Shown here: positions 3,094 through 33,611 of the stretch, piece by piece
How positions within the stretch are numbered: the first letter of the stretch is position 1
Layout of the letters: each line of letters opens with the position of its first letter
IMG/VR virus record: IMGVR_UViG_3300027759_000243
Span: 1 to 34,653 of that record
Reading direction: 5' to 3' (one strand)
Length of the DNA: 34,653 nucleotides
Source: a virus
Notes under the pieces: model-generated
Databases searched by the model: none
Told to the model about the DNA's origin: nothing
What the model saw: the letters and a program-made list of their open reading frames with translations, nothing else
Made by a program: the position numbers and the translations under genes

Positions 3094-4191
3094 ATGTCAG
3101 ATGACCGCAGAGAATTGCTAGAAGCCGCATTAGACCAAGCCGAAGAAGGCACTTTAGAAGCACCAATCGAAAAGGAGATAGAGGTAAATGAAGATCCAAT
3201 CCAAGCCGAAGTTGAAGAAAGCAACGACAGTAGCGAAGAAGGCAACAACCGTGACGAAAAGGGTCGTTTCAAAAGCAATGCCGAAGAAGCCAGTAGCACA
3301 GACGATACCGTTGAAGAACCCGAATTGGCTAATGAAGCTAGTGATGCTAATGAAGAACAAATAAAACGCCCTACTACTTGGAAAAAGGAATACAGGGATG
3401 TTTGGGACAAAATGCAAGAAGGTAAACCGCTAGATAAAGCGGAATTTGCTAAATTTGCTGAATATGCCAATCAGCGTGAAGCAGAGTACAAAAAAGGTGT
3501 ATCTGCCTACAAAGCTGAAGCTGACAATGCTAGAGAATTGACACAAGCGATTGGCCCGTTTATTCCTGAGCTTCAAAAGCATGGTATTCATCCTGCCGCA
3601 TGGATCAATAACTTAGGTCGAGCACATTACACTTTAGCCAACGGAACTCAAGAGCAAAAGTTAAATGCGTTTAATAGACTTGCACAAGATTATGGAATAC
3701 AATTAAACCAAGATGCACTTCAGATGCCTGAACAGGCGTATGTTGACCCGTATCAGCAACAGTTAATGCAGCAACTTCAAGCTACCCAGCAACAAGTTGC
3801 TCAACTGTCACAGATTCGGGAGCAAGAGGAAAATGCTCGATTAAGTAATGAAATTAATCGGGTAAGTAGTAACAAAGAGCGGTTTCCGCACTTTGATATG
3901 GTAAGGGAGGATATGGCTCAATTACTTGAGCGAGGTTTAGCCCAAGACCTAGAATCGGCTTATGCCAAAGCGGTGCGTATGAATGACGAAGCGTACAAGC
4001 TAGAGCAGGATAAACTCCTGAAATCAGCTAATACCCAAGCGTCTAAGGCACAGCAAGTAGCAAAAGCTAAAGCAACTGCTGTTAGTCCACGATCCGTTAC
4101 TCCTAGCGGTCAAGTGTCTAAGACAGATGCAAAGGATAGACGATCCTTATTATTGGCTTCTTTAGCCGATGCCGAGGGTGGTCGGGTTTAA
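3094..4191 (+). CDS. Putative scaffolding protein
   Basis: This 365-aa, highly charged protein starts after AAGGA. Residues 1-90 are very acidic and low in complexity. Residues 90-150 carry PTTWKKEYRDVWDKM. Residues 200-300 are Gln-rich coiled coil (YQQQLMQQLQATQQQVAQL). The C-terminus is basic (SPRSVTPSGQ...KDRRSLLLASLAD). This composition and its place directly before the capsid gene match phage scaffold proteins, which template procapsid assembly and are absent from the mature head. No protease motif was seen. The assignment is by context and composition. Confidence 0.75.
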   Translation: MSDDRRELLEAALDQAEEGTLEAPIEKEIEVNEDPIQAEVEESNDSSEEGNNRDEKGRFKSNAEEASSTDDTVEEPELANEASDANEEQIKRPTTWKKEYRDVWDKMQEGKPLDKAEFAKFAEYANQREAEYKKGVSAYKAEADNARELTQAIGPFIPELQKHGIHPAAWINNLGRAHYTLANGTQEQKLNAFNRLAQDYGIQLNQDALQMPEQAYVDPYQQQLMQQLQATQQQVAQLSQIREQEENARLSNEINRVSSNKERFPHFDMVREDMAQLLERGLAQDLESAYAKAVRMNDEAYKLEQDKLLKSANTQASKAQQVAKAKATAVSPRSVTPSGQVSKTDAKDRRSLLLASLADAEGGRV

Positions 4192-4214
4192 CTTAATTTA
4201 ATAAAGGAAATATC

Positions 4215-4372
4215 ATGGCATTTGCTAACTCAGCAATCACCGATATTATCGCTACCACCATTCAAAGTCGTAGCGGAGTATTGGCTGATAACTTGACACA
4301 AAACAATGCAATTTTGCAAAGACTTAACTCGAAGGGTAATGTCCGTCCATTTAGTGGCGGAAATGTAATCCT
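4215..4372 (+). CDS. Major capsid protein, exon 1
   Basis: ATG 4215 follows AAAGGA by eight bases. Exon 1 encodes residues 1-52 plus two bases of codon 53, with ITDIIATTIQSRSGVLADNL and SGGNVIL. Reading on without splicing hits TGA at 4377 after 54 codons, far too short for a capsid protein. The exon ends in CCT, whose last U can pair with G in P1 of the intron. Joined to 4615-5440 it gives 984 nt, 327 aa, with the junction reading GNVIL-EEIMYNDP, a natural continuation. It lies directly downstream of the scaffold gene. Confidence 0.88.
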
Positions 4373-4614
4373 TAATTGATGGGGTCACTCTGCCGTTGAA
4401 CGCAGATGTGAGAATTCTCTCTAATTGACTTGGAACTCCCGAAGGGGACAACAGGGCGGAAGGCGAAAGCCACCGTGAACGACTAAACGAGAGAACACCA
4501 AGAACTGGTGGAGCGATAGTCTGACCTTAGATATAACTTGATGTAATTTAAGTCTAAGAGTGTAGCGGAACAGAAACGACTACACCAAGCTGGGATCGGC
4601 TTGTAACAACCGAG
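4373..4614 (+). ncRNA. Group I intron in the capsid gene (242 nt, no ORF)
   Basis: The canonical core can be drawn by eye. P1: exon bases 4368-4372 (AUCCU) pair with 4381-4385 (GGGGU), ending in the diagnostic U-G wobble. P3: 4415-4421 with 4489-4495 (UUCUCUC/GAGAGAA). P5: around CUCCC-GAA-GGGG. P6/P6a: GG 4458-4459 with CC 4473-4474, then GGC-GAAA-GCC at 4462-4471. P7: GACUA 4481-4485 with UAGUC 4517-4521, a bulged C at 4480, and A4479-U4522, the guanosine-binding layout. P8: CACCA 4496-4500 with UGGUG 4506-4510. P9-type hairpins follow at 4526-4558, 4560-4585 and 4586-4603. The last base is G4614. No homing endonuclease ORF is present. Confidence 0.93.
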
Positions 4615-5440
4615 CGAGGAAATTATGTACAACGATCCAAATACTAATAACGCTAATTCATATAGCGGTTACGAAGTATTGGATATTACTCCTGATAGCC
4701 CTATCTCTGCGGCTCAGTTCAGCATTACTCAGTATGCTGATTCTGTAACAATGAGTGGTCTAGAAATGTTGCAAAACAGTTCCAAAGAAGCAATCATTGA
4801 CCTTTTAGATGGTCGTATGCAAGTTTCTGAAGCCCGTTTATTAAACCGTATTTCAGGTGACATTTATGGCGATGGTACTGGTAATGGCGGAAAAAACATA
4901 ACTGGATTGGCCGCTATGGTTCCCGTTTCAAATACGACTGGCACGTACGGTGGCATTAACCGTGCAAACTGGGCGTTTTGGCAGAACCAATCTTCTACTG
5001 GTGCGGATTCTTCTTCATTGATTCAAGCCGCTATGACTTCTGCCGCTATCAAATCTGTTCGTGGCACAGACAAAGTGGATTTAATTGTTTCAGGTAACAC
5101 TCTGTATCAACGCTATGTTGCTTCTTTGCAAGCTATTCAGCGTATTGCTGGTGTTGAAGAAGGTGCGGCTGGCTTTGCATCATTGAAGTTCTACGGTGGC
5201 GGTATGTCTGCTGATGTGGTATTAGGTGGCGGTATTGGTGCTCAAGAGAACGCATTGTATATGTATCTTTTGAACACTAACTATATGTTCCTACGCCCAC
5301 ATAAAGAGCGTAATTTCGTTCCTATTGGTGGCGAGCGTCAATCTATCAATCAAGATGCAATCGTGAAGCTGTATGGTTGGGCAGGTAATTTAACTTGCTC
5401 TAATGCTTCATTGCAAGGTATCTTGACTGGTACGGCTTAA
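4615..5440 (+). CDS. Major capsid protein, exon 2
   Basis: Exon 2 completes codon 53 (CT+C, Leu) and encodes residues 54-327. It begins EEIMYNDPNTNNANSYSGYE and continues with ISAAQFSITQYADSVTMSG, GRMQVSEARLLNRISGDIYG and C-terminal GERQSINQDAIVKLYGWAGN. Length and layout fit an HK97-fold coat protein of small podovirus-like phages, based on remembered similarity to phage capsid proteins and on position between scaffold and head-tail genes. The ATG at 4625 is an internal methionine, not a start; an ORF starting there lacks the N-terminal arm. Confidence 0.88.
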
Positions 5441-5467
5441 TCATATCCATAGAAAAGGAAAATTATC

Positions 5468-5764
5468 ATGGCATATACCGTTCTCCCCATCGCTGGCGTA
5501 GATTTGAATAATGTGGCTAACACAAATACAAACTCTGCTGGCACAGCAATCTCAACCTTTGGCCCACTCGGTGCTGAAACATTTGGAAACACAGGTTTTC
5601 GTTATGTTTTTGCACAAGCTGGTGTAGCAATTGCAACTTCTTCTGCAACTTGCATCATTAATGCTTCAACATTCCAAGTAACTTTGGGTGCGACAGGCAC
5701 ATATTTGTCAGGTGCTTCAATGGCTTCAGGCGATTATGGTTGGTTTAGCAAGGCTTCTGTTTGA
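5468..5764 (+). CDS. Putative capsid decoration/head protein (98 aa)
   Basis: This small Ala/Gly/Ser/Thr-rich beta-type protein begins MAYTVLPIAGVDLNNVANTN after a good AAGGAAA site. It has no charged or helical domain and no membrane segment. It follows the capsid gene by 27 bases and is closed by a strong terminator, a slot often used for highly expressed head decoration proteins. Sequence alone does not prove the function. Confidence 0.6.
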   Translation: MAYTVLPIAGVDLNNVANTNTNSAGTAISTFGPLGAETFGNTGFRYVFAQAGVAIATSSATCIINASTFQVTLGATGTYLSGASMASGDYGWFSKASV

Positions 5765-5797
5765 TTAGCTTAAAACGCTAAAATGTAGTAAAAACGA

Positions 5798-5828
5798 GGG
5801 GTTAGCTCACAAGGCTGACCCCTTTTTT
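5798..5828 (+). terminator. Rho-independent terminator after capsid genes
   Basis: GGGGTTAGC (5798-5806), a seven-base loop, then GCTGACCCC (5814-5822) and six T. The stem is nine base pairs with one G-U (or U-G) step. It probably sets high capsid transcript levels relative to the downstream tail genes. Confidence 0.9.
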
Positions 5829-5867
5829 CTTTAACCTTTTACCTTAATACCTTGAGGAGATTTAAAA

Positions 5868-6515
5868 ATGGCTTTACCTTCAGATCAAAACAATGCGGAT
5901 TCCCGATTACAAGTACGCTTTTACAAGCGATCAGTACATCAAGAACAAGAATCAATGGATGCTGGCAGACCAATCTTTAAAGACTTTGATTTTGTCCAAA
6001 TTTGCGTAGCTGGTGATTCTTTAACCGAAATTGACACTTATGCCCTAGCTAGTCATAAAACCCGTTTTCCTATTCAATGGGCTAATTACATGAATAGACA
6101 GGGTGCAAACGATGAGGAAGTGGTTGGAACACCTGTAGCAGAATGGCCTTTAGTATCAAAAAGCCAAGCTGAAGAACTGCGAGCAATGAAGTTTCACACT
6201 ATTGAATCTATTGCAAATGCTTCAGATCAGCAATTACAGCGTATGGGTATGGCGGCAGGAATGTCACCTTATGCGTTCCGTGATAAGGCAAAGGCATTTT
6301 TAAATCTAGCCACCAATGCGGCAGAAACAGACAAGCGTGAAAGTGAAATTAACGCTTTGAAAGAAGAACTTGCCAAAAAAGACAAAGAAACTGCTAAAAT
6401 AAAGGCAGAAACAGATGCAAAGCTGGCTCAAATGCAAGATCAAATGGCCGCTATACTTGCCGCTGTTGGTGAAAAGAAACCCCGTAAGAAAGCGGTAGCC
6501 ACAGAGGAAGCCTAA
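5868..6515 (+). CDS. Conserved phage structural-region protein (215 aa)
   Basis: Strong GAGGAG site and ATG start. Residues 1-90 form a compact domain (RLQVRFYKRSVHQEQESMDA, PIFKDFDFVQICVAGDSLTE). Residues 100-145 have a short helix-hairpin-helix-like stretch (TIESIANASDQQLQRMGM). From about 150 there is a long Lys/Glu/Ala coiled coil ending in basic KKPRKKAVATEEA. It sits between the capsid and head-tail adaptor genes. I know of similar uncharacterised proteins in this position in podovirus genomes but cannot assign a function. Confidence 0.65.
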   Translation: MALPSDQNNADSRLQVRFYKRSVHQEQESMDAGRPIFKDFDFVQICVAGDSLTEIDTYALASHKTRFPIQWANYMNRQGANDEEVVGTPVAEWPLVSKSQAEELRAMKFHTIESIANASDQQLQRMGMAAGMSPYAFRDKAKAFLNLATNAAETDKRESEINALKEELAKKDKETAKIKAETDAKLAQMQDQMAAILAAVGEKKPRKKAVATEEA

Positions 6516-21768: not shown

Positions 21769-21950
21769 AAAAAAAAGGGTCTAAAAACAATTATCCTGAC
21801 CAAAGAAATGGCGATTACATGGATGTTGTTGATATTGCAAAAGAATTGAATATTTCTAAAACTGAAGTTCAATCATCATTAAAAGCAATATTTCGTAAGT
21901 TTAGAAAACATATGAAAAACAACAATTTAAACAAAGAACATTTTTTATGA
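21765..21950 (+). CDS. Small HTH protein (61 aa)
   Basis: VVDIAKELNISKTEVQSSLK is a sigma region 4-like helix-turn-helix; the C-terminus is basic (FRKFRKHMKNNNLNK). A transcription role (activator or antisigma-type DNA binder) is inferred. Overlaps both neighbours by four bases and precedes the DpdA-like gene. Ribosome site absent; coupled translation likely. Confidence 0.6.
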   Translation: MKKKGSKNNYPDQRNGDYMDVVDIAKELNISKTEVQSSLKAIFRKFRKHMKNNNLNKEHFL

Positions 21951-22684
21951 TTCATTATCATGGACTTCCTATAACCCCAGCTACAGTAGCTAACTATGCT
22001 GTGCAAGCTGGTCATGCGTTTGTGTCTTATGCCCATCCTGATCAAATTGGAACTGCTATTGAGGTGTGCCAATCTTTTGCCATAGATAATGGTGCTTTTA
22101 GTGCTTGGAAAAGCGGAAAACCTATAACTGATTGGGATGCTTATTATGATTGGGCATTAAATCTTAAAAAAGTGCCATCTTGTGATTTTGCTGTCATTCC
22201 TGATGTAATTGACGGCACGGAAGCTGACAATGACGCTTTGCTTGAAGATTGCCCATTGCCTAAATGGTTTGGTGCTCCTGTTTGGCATATGCACGAATCA
22301 TTAGAAAGGCTAGAACAATTAGCAAATTACTATGTTCGAGTTTGTATTGGTAGTTCAGGCGAATACGGAGTAGTAGGTACAACCGCTTGGTGGTCAAGAA
22401 TTGGACAAGCTATGCGTATCATTTGTGATGATATGGGTAAGCCAATATGCAAACTTCATGGCTTGCGTATGTTAGACCCCTCAATATTCACTAAATTGCC
22501 TTTTGCATCAACTGATAGCACCAATATTGGTAGAAATGTAGGAATTGATAAAAATTGGAAAAACGGCAATTATCCACCGCCAACTAAAGAAGCTAGAGCA
22601 CAAGTAATGCGATCTAGAATTGAAGCCCACAATGCTCCAGCAGTATGGAATTTTATGCAAGTTGAACAGGATAATTTATTTTGA
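21947..22684 (+). CDS. dpdA-like: TGT/DpdA-like DNA base-exchange enzyme
   Basis: 245 aa with the order of tRNA-guanine transglycosylase motifs: FAIDNGAFSAW (Asp47, like TGT SDSGGFQ), VIPDVIDG (85-87 PDV), APVWHMHE, CIGSSGEYG (134-141, like the TGT GG loop), KLHGLRML (169-176) and FASTDSTNIGRN (187-197; Asp190 aligns with the nucleophile, like TGT's FDCVLPTRNAR). TGT-like phage enzymes of the DpdA family put 7-deazaguanine into DNA, which blocks host restriction. A PTPS-family gene overlaps its end. The zinc-binding Cys/His of TGT is not obvious, typical of short DpdA forms. Confidence 0.65.
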   Translation: MIHYHGLPITPATVANYAVQAGHAFVSYAHPDQIGTAIEVCQSFAIDNGAFSAWKSGKPITDWDAYYDWALNLKKVPSCDFAVIPDVIDGTEADNDALLEDCPLPKWFGAPVWHMHESLERLEQLANYYVRVCIGSSGEYGVVGTTAWWSRIGQAMRIICDDMGKPICKLHGLRMLDPSIFTKLPFASTDSTNIGRNVGIDKNWKNGNYPPPTKEARAQVMRSRIEAHNAPAVWNFMQVEQDNLF

Positions 22685-23046
22685 AACTAACCCAAACATT
22701 TATATTTGAAGCCGCACACACTTTAAAAGCTAGGTATATTGATGTTCATACCAAAATGCAATCTGAAAACATACATGGGCATACTTATACCGCCAGCATA
22801 TCGGTTAAGGGTGAACCTGATGAAAACGGCATGGTAAAAGATTTTGGACATTTTAAATGGGCTATTGATGCTGTTAAATTACAACTTGACCACAAGTTTT
22901 TAGATAATGTTGAAGGTTTGGGCAGACCAACTATGGAAAATTTATGTTTATTTATAGCCAATTACCTTAAAAGCGTAGAAGGTTTATGTGAAGTAACCGT
23001 TGAAAGAATCGCATCAGGCGATAAATGCACATTGGAGATTGAATAA
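22681..23046 (+). CDS. 6-pyruvoyl-tetrahydropterin synthase family protein (PTPS-III-like motif)
   Basis: 121 aa, TTG start within the previous TGA. FEAAHTL (His13) and IHGHTY (His32, His34) are the zinc ligands; LDHKFLDN (Asp70-His71) is the catalytic pair; GDKCTLEIE ends the protein. QueD and PTPS-I enzymes carry a catalytic Cys shortly before HGH; here the sequence is SENIHGH, with Glu29 in the ExxHGH arrangement of PTPS-III enzymes of folate synthesis. The neighbour suggests 7-deazaguanine synthesis, the motif suggests pterin/folate chemistry, so the exact reaction is open. Confidence 0.75.
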   Translation: MKLTQTFIFEAAHTLKARYIDVHTKMQSENIHGHTYTASISVKGEPDENGMVKDFGHFKWAIDAVKLQLDHKFLDNVEGLGRPTMENLCLFIANYLKSVEGLCEVTVERIASGDKCTLEIE

Positions 23047-23213
23047 TGTTAAAACTCACCGAAGAATTTTTAATTCTTAAATTACTTTGCAAGATGTATG
23101 ACGATGCCCTGAACCGCAAAGACTATACCCAAATGCTAGAGATCAGCGTAGACATTGCAGAATCAAGCGATAAGCTAGAACAAATGACCGTAGATCACAT
23201 CAATGGCCACTAA
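23046..23213 (+). CDS. Small hypothetical protein (55 aa)
   Basis: MLKLTEEFLILKLLCKMYDD then NRKDYTQMLEISVDIAESSD and LEQMTVDHINGH. Helical and acidic. Starts in the TAATG of the PTPS gene and overlaps the HNH gene by 11 nt. No recognised domain. Confidence 0.55.
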   Translation: MLKLTEEFLILKLLCKMYDDALNRKDYTQMLEISVDIAESSDKLEQMTVDHINGH

Positions 23214-23475
23214 GCATGAAAAAGAAAAATACCGAAAAATTGCTGAACTGGGATGCTCATTATGTAGGCATCAAGGCAATGAAGGAACGCCAGCAGAACT
23301 GCATCACATTAGACGAGGTGGCATACGAAGCCGCAGTCCAGTTATACCGCTCTGTACCTTTCACCATAGAGGGTCAAATACCAGTATTCACGGAATGGGT
23401 CGCAAACGCTTCGAGCAAGAATACGGAATCACGGAAGAACAGCTTTTGGAGAAAACGGAAAGTCTTATTAAGTGA
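23203..23475 (+). CDS. Ref-like HNH nuclease
   Basis: 90 aa. CSLCR (Cys18, Cys21), LHHIRRGG (His34-His35), PLCTFHHRG (Cys51, His54-55) and IHGMGRKRFEQEYGITEEQL match the phage recombination-enhancement (Ref)/HNH nuclease family, in which a zinc-bound ββα fold cuts DNA, often in RecA-made joints. The length is usual for the small phage form. An overlapping frame at 23216 is a shadow. It could aid recombination together with the leftward exonuclease and SSB-like protein. Confidence 0.8.
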   Translation: MATKHEKEKYRKIAELGCSLCRHQGNEGTPAELHHIRRGGIRSRSPVIPLCTFHHRGSNTSIHGMGRKRFEQEYGITEEQLLEKTESLIK

Positions 23476-30713: not shown

Positions 30714-32899
30714 TGGCTATTACAGTCAAGCATAAGTTTGTAAGTGCCATTCCTGATGCTGGCGATCCTACGATTGTCCAGCCGTCTAATTGGAACGATA
30801 ACCACGATTTAGTAGGAACTGTCCCAGTAGCCAATGGTGGCACAGGTGCGGCAACTCTTACTGGTTATGTCAAGGGTAATGGCACAGCCGCCATGACTGC
30901 GGCATCAACCATACCAAGCACAGATGTAACTGGTCTTGGCACAATGTCCACCCAAAACAGTAATAACATATCTGTTACTGGTGGTTCAATGTCAGGCGTT
31001 ACTATTAGCGATTATGTTGCAACTGCAACAAAAGGCGTAGCTAATGGCGTTGCAAGCCTAGATGGTAGCGGAACTGTCCCTGTAAGTCAGCTTCCTGCCG
31101 CAGTATTGGGAGCGTTAAGTTATCAAGGAACTTGGAATGCAAGCACTAATACACCTACTCTCACCAGTTCTGTGGGTACTAAGGGTTATTACTATGTTGT
31201 CAATGTTGCTGGTTCTACTAACCTTAATGGGATTACTGATTGGCTCGTTGGCGATTGGGCAGTATTTAATGGGTCTGTTTGGCAAAAGGTGGACAACACC
31301 GATGCGGTAACTTCTGTTAACGGATTAACTGGCACAGTCGTTTTAACTCAATCAAACATTACTGGTACTGTAGCTATTGCTAACGGTGGTACGGGGCAAA
31401 CTACGGCAACTGCTGGATTTAATGCTTTAGCACCTAGTCAAACTGGAAATACAGGTAAATACCTGACAACTGACGGAACAAACACTAGCTGGGCTACTAA
31501 CTCAGGCGGTGATGTAACAGGCCCATCAAGTGCTACAGACAATGCTATAGCTAGATATGACGGTACTACAGGCAAATTAATTAAAAACTCAGGCGTTACT
31601 GTTGATAACAATAATAATGTTACTTTAAACGCTTCATTTAATGGATTTACTTCTGTTGCCGCATCAGGAACGCAAATTGTATTAACTGCCGCATCTACTC
31701 CTGTTTATTTAATATCAGGCTCAGGTGGTCAAACTATTAAACTTCCTGATGCTACAACTTTGCCAAATGGCGTTATATTTTCATTCAATAACAATCAATC
31801 TAGCGGTGCAATTACCGTTAATAACAACTCTAATACTTTAATAGTTTCTGTGCCATCAGGCGGCTATACCACCGTAGTATTGTTGTCTAATGCAACTGCG
31901 GCTGGTTCTTGGGATAGACACGACCAAACCCCTGCCAATGTAAGTTGGTCTACCAATACTCTTGATTACGCTGGTTCTATTACCAATGCTACTTGGAACG
32001 GTAATACTGTTGCTTACAATCGTGGTGGTACAGGTCAATCTTCAGCATTTACGGCTGGTGGAATAGTTTATGGTTCTACTACTTCAGCATTAGCAGTTAC
32101 CCCTATTGGAACAACTGGTCAAGTATTAACTTCTGCTGGTGCAGGAACGCCAACTTGGACAACTCCAACTACAGGAACAGTCACAAGCGTAACTGGTACA
32201 AGTCCTGTAGTTTCTAGCGGTGGAAATACTCCTGCTATATCCATGCCAGCGGCTACCACTTCTGTAAGCGGTTATTTGACTTCTACAGATTGGAACACCT
32301 TTAACAATAAAGGTAGCGGAACAGTCACATCGGTTACAGGCACAGCCCCAGTAGTATCTTCAGGTGGTGCAACCCCAGCAATTAGTATGGCTGCCGCAAC
32401 TGGTAGCGTAAACGGCTATCTGACTAGCACCGATTGGACTACATTTAATAACAAGGGATCGGGAACGGTTACATCGGTAGCGGCATTAACTTTAGGCACA
32501 ACGGGTACTGACCTATCATCTACGGTAGCCACAGGCACTACAACACCTGTAATTACGCTTCAAGTTCCAACAGCTTCAGCTACTAACCGTGGTGCTTTAA
32601 GTTCCGCAGATTGGACTACATTTAACGCTAAAGCATCACCGTTTACCTATACTTCAGGTTATATTCCTTATGGTCAAGGAACAACAACCCCAAACCAATC
32701 TTCTAGCTTAACTTTTGCAAGTTCTACGCTAACTGCCCCAATCGTTAATGCAAGCAATGGCTTGGTGGTAAACTCTGCAACTGTTTCAGCTAGTTATTCA
32801 TTGCCAAGCGGTTCTAATGCAATGTCAGTAGGCCCTATAACAGTAGCAAGTGGTCAATCAGTAACAGTAAGTTCAGGACAAAGGTGGGTGGTTCTATGA
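30713..32899 (+). CDS. Large tail fibre protein
   Basis: 728 aa. N-terminal MAITVKHKFVSAIPDAGDPT and PSNWNDNHDLVGTVPVANGG, a common attachment domain. Then fibre repeats: ANGGTGAATL, ANGGTGQTTA, RGGTGQSSAF (GGTG units), a central collagen-free beta domain (QIVLTAASTPVYLISGSGG), and two 48-residue repeats (32177-32464). The C-terminus has SASYSLPSGSNAMSVGPITV. Probably carries the other fibre genes downstream. Starts in TAATGG of the portal stop. Confidence 0.85.
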   Translation: MAITVKHKFVSAIPDAGDPTIVQPSNWNDNHDLVGTVPVANGGTGAATLTGYVKGNGTAAMTAASTIPSTDVTGLGTMSTQNSNNISVTGGSMSGVTISDYVATATKGVANGVASLDGSGTVPVSQLPAAVLGALSYQGTWNASTNTPTLTSSVGTKGYYYVVNVAGSTNLNGITDWLVGDWAVFNGSVWQKVDNTDAVTSVNGLTGTVVLTQSNITGTVAIANGGTGQTTATAGFNALAPSQTGNTGKYLTTDGTNTSWATNSGGDVTGPSSATDNAIARYDGTTGKLIKNSGVTVDNNNNVTLNASFNGFTSVAASGTQIVLTAASTPVYLISGSGGQTIKLPDATTLPNGVIFSFNNNQSSGAITVNNNSNTLIVSVPSGGYTTVVLLSNATAAGSWDRHDQTPANVSWSTNTLDYAGSITNATWNGNTVAYNRGGTGQSSAFTAGGIVYGSTTSALAVTPIGTTGQVLTSAGAGTPTWTTPTTGTVTSVTGTSPVVSSGGNTPAISMPAATTSVSGYLTSTDWNTFNNKGSGTVTSVTGTAPVVSSGGATPAISMAAATGSVNGYLTSTDWTTFNNKGSGTVTSVAALTLGTTGTDLSSTVATGTTTPVITLQVPTASATNRGALSSADWTTFNAKASPFTYTSGYIPYGQGTTTPNQSSSLTFASSTLTAPIVNASNGLVVNSATVSASYSLPSGSNAMSVGPITVASGQSVTVSSGQRWVVL
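32177..32464 (+). repeat. Two tandem 144-bp repeats in the tail fibre
   Basis: Units start at 32177 and 32321, with a partial third at 32465. Each encodes GTVTSVTGT-x-PVVSSGG-x-TPAIS and SGYLTSTDW-x-TFNNKGS. The DNA copies are diverged at third positions, so the duplication is old and maintained as protein repeats in the shaft. Confidence 0.85.
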
Positions 32900-33402
32900 G
32901 TTCAGTAGTCATTTCAGGCGATACAAGCGGTGCTATTACTTTAGCTGCTCCTAGCGTTGCAGGCACTAATACTATTACTTTGCCAGCAAGCACAGGCACT
33001 ATTGCCGTTGCTGATGGCTCAGGCAACTTATCTGTAACAGGTAATCTACAATTCAATTCAGGTTACGGCTCAGTAGGGACTGCATATGGATGTAGAGCAT
33101 GGGTAAACTTTAATGGTACTGGAACTGTAGCCATTCGTGCTAGTGGCAATGTAAGTTCTATTACTGACAATGGTACTGGTGCATACGCTATTAACTTTAC
33201 AACTGCAATGCCTGATGCAAACTATAGTGCTAATGTAAGTGTTAGTAGCGTTCCTAGTACATCAGATGCAAACTTTATTGTTACTGATGCCAATAATACG
33301 GCACTTGCTTCACCAACAACTACTGCATTTTCAATGACTGTTTTTAGATTTCAAGGCTCACCAATAGATACTAGTTTTGTTAGAGTTTCTGTATTTAGAT
33401 AA
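32896..33402 (+). CDS. Short tail fibre / receptor-binding protein, AWVNF-type module
   Basis: A GTG 12 bases earlier is possible, but AAGGTGG is correctly spaced for ATG 32896, which overlaps the upstream TGA (ATGA). 168 aa: MSSVVISGDTSGAITLAAPS and NTITLPASTGTIAVADGSGN (common fibre linker), then the module CRAWVNFNG, NVSSIT, YAINFTTAMPDANYSANV, shared with 596-1006. Ends in the FVRVSVFR strand, as the other copy ends in FVYASVFSS. Confidence 0.75.
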   Translation: MSSVVISGDTSGAITLAAPSVAGTNTITLPASTGTIAVADGSGNLSVTGNLQFNSGYGSVGTAYGCRAWVNFNGTGTVAIRASGNVSSITDNGTGAYAINFTTAMPDANYSANVSVSSVPSTSDANFIVTDANNTALASPTTTAFSMTVFRFQGSPIDTSFVRVSVFR

Positions 33403-33413
33403 TTGGACAAAAA

Positions 33414-33611
33414 ATGAACAAACGAGTTATTTACCCTAACGATAATGGCGGTGTATCTATTTTGATACCAACACCTGAGTATCTTAAAACACATACTATT
33501 GAAGAACTTGCCGCCAAAGATGTACCAACTGGTAAACCATTTAAGATTATTGATGTTTCAGATATTCCAACAGACCGCACATTCCGTAACGCTTGGGAGT
33601 ATCAAGAATGA
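33414..33611 (+). CDS. Putative fibre assembly protein, short form (65 aa)
   Basis: MNKRVIYPNDNGGVSILIPT, then ELAAKDVPTGKPFKIIDVSD and IPTDRTFRNAWEYQE. Aligns with the first two thirds of the 105-aa protein at 1016 (YTNSNGGVSV, LVKDCPAG, LPTDNAYFDAWE). The C-terminal helix is encoded separately by the next gene. ATGA overlap. Confidence 0.6.
   Translation: MNKRVIYPNDNGGVSILIPTPEYLKTHTIEELAAKDVPTGKPFKIIDVSDIPTDRTFRNAWEYQE

Follow-up and report, generated by a model that had tools for sequence, protein, structure and literature searches.

The stretch of viral DNA analysed here at its full length of 34,653 nucleotides (nt), below called the window, is IMG/VR record IMGVR_UViG_3300027759_000243, and it carries a major head (capsid) protein gene of the phrog_9953 family that is interrupted by 242 nt at positions 4373–4614. 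The features described at this locus all lie on the plus strand. Read straight through, the gene falls into two open reading frames (ORFs) in the ORF list, one of 54 amino acids (4215–4379) and one of 271 amino acids lacking an N-terminus (4625–5440), which by themselves match positions 4–54 and 61–328 of the phrog_9953 profile, respectively. When 4215–4372 is joined to 4615–5440, the frame is open for 327 residues and the product covers profile positions 4–328 of 329 (E 1.4e-92). Exon 1 (4215–4372) comprises codons 1–53, the last of them split as CT-C, and exon 2 (4615–5440, including the stop codon) matches phrog_9953 with an E-value of 5e-77. The interrupting element is very probably a small, endonuclease-free group I intron at what is here called site A of the capsid gene, which would splice to give the 327-residue protein, arrived recently by being copied in with a piece of donor exon, and belongs to a family found mainly in virion structural genes.

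The junctions are set by comparison with other alleles. Exon 1 is covered in 79 IMG/VR relatives, 74 of which have the two exons directly contiguous at the 4372/4615 point, and the junction letters CCT-TAA...G-C(G/C)AGGA (hyphens marking the junctions) are kept in the other site-A alleles; intron-less alleles therefore exist, and removal of the intron restores the host reading frame. The intron ends in G, as do all the family's bounded introns (27/27, the ends being placed by exon alignment; a terminal G was demanded by the search pattern, but not by the exon alignments that set the intron ends). An initial annotation of this locus had described a 54-codon straight-through peptide followed by an ORF without N-terminus, junctions after 4372 and at a terminal G at 4614, and an open joined frame, and had suggested comparison with intron-less capsid homologues. 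Both ORFs exist as claimed, the homologues and the other site-A alleles place the junctions at exactly those bases, the exon alignments put a G at the intron end, and the joined frame gives an end-to-end phrog_9953 match.

Core fold and detection by covariance models

The intron RNA is predicted to fold into a standard group I core. The end of exon 1, AUCCU at 4368–4372 with U at the splice site, forms the 5′ strand of P1 and pairs with an internal guide, GGGGU, at 4381–4385; the P2 hairpin (4385–4411; UCAC-UCUGC/GCAGA-U-GUGA) is read from the sequence, and its strands co-vary by eye in L020 and L076. P3 pairs UUCUCUC (4415–4421) with GAGAGAA (4489–4495), all seven of its pairs having compensatory changes among 45 sequences. 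The strands of P3 enclose P4 (CUUG 4429–4432 with CAGG 4452–4455) and P5 (UCCC 4437–4440 with GGGA 4445–4448), together spanning 4429–4455, P6 (GCGG/CCGU, 4456–4476) with a GAAA-capped P6a at 4462–4471, and the 5′ strand of the guanosine-binding helix P7 (GACUA, 4481–4485), whose partner UAGUC at 4517–4521 was part of the covariation set. P8 (4496–4510) is a hairpin of the form CACCA AGAAC UGGUG with compensatory changes in 5/5 pairs, and three P9-type peripheral hairpins (4526–4558, 4560–4585 and 4587–4602, thus 4526–4602 in all) are drawn from a single-sequence fold. In such a structure AUCCU at the exon end would be held on the guide GGGGU by P1, and a P7-bound guanosine would attack after U4372. 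A second attack, by the 3′-OH of the exon after G4614, would ligate the two parts of codon 53 into CTC and give back the 327-residue capsid protein.

Covariation supports the core well beyond the single sequence. In an alignment of the P3–P8 core from 45 distinct relatives, which was fitted to the model structure so that pair counts favour the model, 21 of 29 pairs show compensatory changes against 10.3 in shuffles (0/500), and 182 cells are doubly changed against 41 in shuffles (0/500). Pairing holds in 98.7% of cells and drops to 37–56% when the partners are slid by 1–3 columns. P7, which is absent from the covariance model, is 98.6% paired in the same 45 sequences and mostly invariant. The same picture is obtained from six sequences aligned by MAFFT alone, where all 29 core pairs hold in each sequence and 9/29 have compensatory changes. 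A P7.1/P7.2 extension between P7 and P3 is a defining feature of group IA introns. No such extension is seen in the window, where the P7–P3 spacer is just 3 nt (AAC). More than half of the known viral group I introns are of subtype IA2 (PMC11835236).

On sequence grounds, therefore, the element at 4373–4614 is a group I intron, and the group I identity proposed in the initial annotation is borne out by the covariation of the core and by the guide–target changes across insertion sites described below; the P3, P7 (GACUA/UAGUC) and P8 pairings it listed are present and co-vary. Its statement that a U-G closed P1 fixes the 5′ site stands only in part: the helix is there, but 48/298 U-ended positions of the gene pair with the guide equally well, and P1 of the window thus proves little by itself.

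The proposed check with the Rfam covariance model RF00028 (Intron_gpI) came close to speaking against the assignment, as the window intron scores 13.2 bits (E 0.65) against a cut-off of 50. No family member among those tried is called at the gathering threshold, and a permissive search of two members returned only chance opposite-strand matches (MEG8_3) and no Intron_gpI. The gathering cut-off is a detection threshold rather than a structural definition, and the miss is not decisive because the comparative evidence overrides it and because the weak alignment, which spans the whole model, still puts P3 and P7 where that evidence does. The window intron thus shares with RF00028 the P3–P8/P4–P6 core, the GACUA/UAGUC P7, the U.G pair at the 5′ site and the terminal G, and differs in its score (13.2 against 50) and in that other members are missed, two of them even in permissive mode.

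The intron family, its host genes and its guides

Relatives were sought by scanning two core patterns over IMG/VR, the first of which gave 41 contigs and the second at least 120 stretches, and a covariance model of the core then yielded at least 147 members on 116 contigs, duplicates set aside and the weakest members scoring 25–40 bits. The E-values of this model are not independent evidence, because the contigs were pre-selected by the core patterns and the window was in the seed. Host genes were assigned by clustering the flanking exons after trimming the intron ends (a guard against translated intron ends linking unrelated proteins, which left the clusters unchanged) and naming the clusters with PHROGs. 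Among the matches listed, three families of major capsid genes, namely phrog_283 (P22 type), phrog_1357 and phrog_9953, hold 108 of the 147 introns and involve 88 of the 116 contigs. At least 12 further introns interrupt tape-measure genes, and single ones occur in portal, prohead protease and ribonucleotide reductase genes. Single linkage was used to build the phrog_1357 cluster, in which L107, L085 and L198 match that family clearly and L160 weakly (E 0.0025). These proportions are no unbiased census, because the scan, itself blind to the host gene, started from a capsid intron.

The family extends to GenBank entry MW202674, where an intron of the same kind lies between two pieces annotated 'P22 coat protein', and to the cultured Roseobacter phage CRP-118, which has a member in its ribonucleotide reductase gene; among plasmids no relative was found at the search sensitivity used. 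Some contigs are more heavily interrupted. L088 (5997–7646) and, likewise, L133 have three family introns within or next to a single P22-type coat gene. L139 has three on one contig, in a host gene with no assigned identity; a gene of some 390 residues that holds as many as three introns and has no PHROG match, seen in L139 and in L128 (401–1582, minus strand), is possibly another type of structural protein. In L237, a phage-like contig binned as a Parachlamydia metagenome-assembled genome, several weak core matches fall within about 3 kilobases (kb; 3582–6382), and one exon between them fits the phrog_1357 capsid family, which suggests a capsid gene cut into several exons.

Within the phrog_9953 capsid family at least four insertion sites are occupied: A, the site of the window; B, 25 nt downstream of A; C, near residue 308 as aligned and immediately before IVKLYGW; and D, near residue 277. 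A putative fifth site, 'E', turned out on re-examination to be the same as C. L112 has two introns in its phrog_9953 capsid gene, at sites A and C. At all four sites a U-ended exon is paired with a guide G in P1, and the guide differs from site to site: exon end and guide are AUCCU/GGGGU at site A, with U.G at the splice site, CCGU/GCGG at site B (CCAU/GUGG in L101 and L131), and AGACGCU with GGCGUCU or GGUGUCU at site C. The mean guide pairing score is 4.6 for an intron's own site and 1.3 across sites. Judged by these pairings, the guide sequence follows its target across insertion sites.

Movement between phages

The introns and the capsid genes that hold them have different histories. In two different viruses, L076 and L083, the 245-nt site-A introns do not differ at all, whereas the capsid exons agree at 83% of positions (67% at third codon positions), and site-B introns, L084 aside, are 91–98% identical against 75–87% for the exons. 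In the intron tree the site labels A, C and B need 1, 1 and 2 changes, A and C forming single groups and B nearly so; in the capsid tree the same labels, in the same order, need 7, 3 and 6 changes, and intron carriers stand beside intron-less sisters. Read from these comparisons, the family has clearly moved horizontally between the capsid genes of different phages.

The window itself appears to preserve the trace of one such event. Its closest relative, L001 (92%), is intron-less, and the two differ by about 30% mismatch from −62 to +9 around the insertion point compared with about 5% outside. In this 72-nt patch (5′ part at about 4311–4372, the 3′ side reaching at least 4624) precisely the six other intron-A carriers compared come first when some 80 alleles are ranked by closeness to the window; outside it the nearest is L001. 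A gain in the window is favoured over a loss in L001 because the intron-less outgroups mostly agree with L001 in the patch (L047 by 19 positions to 1, L007 by 17 to 1). The simplest reading is that gene conversion brought the intron into the window lineage along with a short tract of donor exon. More specifically, the intron would be a recent arrival in the lineage, copied by recombination or gene conversion from a different intron-bearing phage, with about 62 nt of donor exon upstream and at least 9 nt downstream carried along; that donor exon came with the intron points to conversion at the DNA level, which might have been triggered by a trans-acting endonuclease or by ordinary phage recombination after co-infection.

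Several points weigh against this account: (i) splicing of 4373–4614 is read from anatomy; (ii) the choice between gain and loss hangs on the outgroups, of which L005 is weaker (10 against 6); (iii) the Intron_gpI score is far under the gathering cut-off; (iv) the peripheral P9 region comes from single-sequence folding; and (v) the records are fragments, so that an endonuclease elsewhere in the phage or host is possible. As to the last, the bounded introns at sites A–C are 224–254 nt long and encode nothing recognisable, and the window intron holds just short open stretches, in agreement with the absence of a homing ORF first reported for it.

Among the ways in which the intron could have been brought in, collaborative homing, as discussed in PMC3984707, would specify the trigger of the conversion: an intron-less capsid gene is cut near the insertion site by a free-standing endonuclease, whose gene lies elsewhere or in a co-infecting phage, and repair of the break copies in the intron with neighbouring donor exon. 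We give this somewhat less than an even chance. The window patch is a mark of DNA-level conversion and fits it, as does the distribution of shared identity around the sites: at site A, carriers agree at every position between −5 and +25 but do not exceed the background upstream of that, and at site B they resemble one another over roughly 45 nt on the downstream side of the insertion point, with upstream identity again no higher than background. Such one-sided identity, observed in few and not independent carriers, fits a break downstream of the site, at 25–45 nt, but the patch in the window reaches upstream and not downstream alone. A candidate gene exists in the L104/L115 virus, where the sole HNH_3 match is a free-standing 160-residue gene about 5 kb upstream of the capsid gene; against this, the Pfam models HNH_3, HNH and GIY-YIG find nothing in the window record or in 23/25 other intron-bearing records, which are partial. 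An Endonuclease VII model matched none of the control genomes and so carries no weight either way. Core-model matches in L164 (2941–3558) and L187 (9224–9880) lie beside homing-endonuclease or endonuclease VII genes, and some more distant members may thus carry or neighbour an endonuclease.

Jumps to new sites might instead begin with reverse splicing into RNA, the product then being reverse-transcribed and recombined, a route that we regard as unlikely. It would suit the occupation of at least four sites in one capsid family and of several more genes, each with a short guide that matches it where examined, and the best hint of such a jump is L084, whose site-B intron is 82–84% identical to the site-A introns of its own capsid clade but 73–76% to other site-B introns, and has an A-type guide (GGGG) facing UCCU. 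However, transfers at the same site carry donor exon, which is unexpected for insertion into recipient RNA, and no reverse transcriptase (RVT_1) was found in the 26 records, window included; reverse splicing may account for occasional moves to a new site, but not for how the intron spread at site A. Finally, a ribosome-bypassed insertion, a broken capsid gene or an assembly error is barely conceivable: Rfam makes no call and intron status is read from sequence alone, but independent contigs have the same element at an identical position, its guide is altered where it occupies other sites, both exons are intact and conserved, and the group I pseudoknot covaries, the bypass and pseudogene readings being ruled out by this covariation and conservation.

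We lean towards conversion at the DNA level, perhaps aided by a trans-acting nuclease; new sites may have been reached by reverse splicing. The question of how the intron spread, raised by the initial annotation, is answered in part, as far as horizontal movement and the co-transferred donor exon go. Whether the family as a whole is a previously unrecognised endonuclease-free lineage, specialised in virion structural genes (three capsid PHROG families, tape measure and portal), spreading efficiently through homing that acts in trans or is driven by recombination and leaves behind short tracts of exon, and now and then re-targeting its guide to new sites, we consider an evenly balanced matter.

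Elsewhere in the window, positions 23203–23475 encode a RecA-dependent, HNH-like nuclease of the Ref family, which is not to be taken for a homing endonuclease. A 6-pyruvoyl-tetrahydropterin synthase (QueD-type) gene (22681–23046) adjoins an ORF of 245 amino acids without Pfam match (21947–22684), and the two possibly belong to a DNA-modification pathway. Towards either end of the record there is a pair of short ORFs (596–1333 and 32884–33611; FTTAMPNANYAIS / FTTAMPDANYSAN), and the two pairs resemble each other as copies of a duplicated tail-tip module might.

Comparison with known systems

Viral genomics relies on capsid genes as standard markers, and a gene split in this way is annotated as truncated or overlooked, MW202674 being an example. 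In addition, the family provides a clean natural data set on how endonuclease-free introns move, with measurable conversion tracts and a cultured relative in CRP-118.

Introns in capsid and tail genes are known from a few phages (PMC3706429). In the mycobacteriophages of Cluster J, the capsid intron of LittleE is about 820 base pairs (bp) long and has a homing endonuclease ORF, the minor tail intron of BAKA is 265 bp long without an endonuclease gene, and splicing was shown by reverse-transcription PCR (PMC3706429). These introns, compared here by description, resemble the present family in being group I-like, in lying in a capsid and a tail gene and, for BAKA, in lacking an endonuclease, while that of LittleE differs in its greater length and its endonuclease ORF. 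The numerous group I introns of the Jug huge phages average about 206 nt, were found with another database's subtype models in terL and nrdD among other genes, and have splicing supported by metatranscriptomes (PMC12363816); again by description, they are likewise short, numerous and split essential phage genes. An endonuclease-free capsid intron alone would add one member to a known kind, and what is new is a family invisible to Rfam, its concentration in virion genes and its horizontal spread.

Phage group I introns favour genes of DNA and nucleotide metabolism, the reason for which is treated as open (PMC11878797, PMC12350094). Specifically, those of Bastillevirinae (PMC11878797) and T4-type phages (PMC2988022) interrupt genes of nucleotide and DNA metabolism and in many cases have homing endonucleases; like the present family they are phage group I introns in protein genes, whereas the latter is found mainly in capsid and tape-measure genes and has no endonuclease gene. 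Given this preference, the bias towards metabolism genes may partly reflect which introns current models see.
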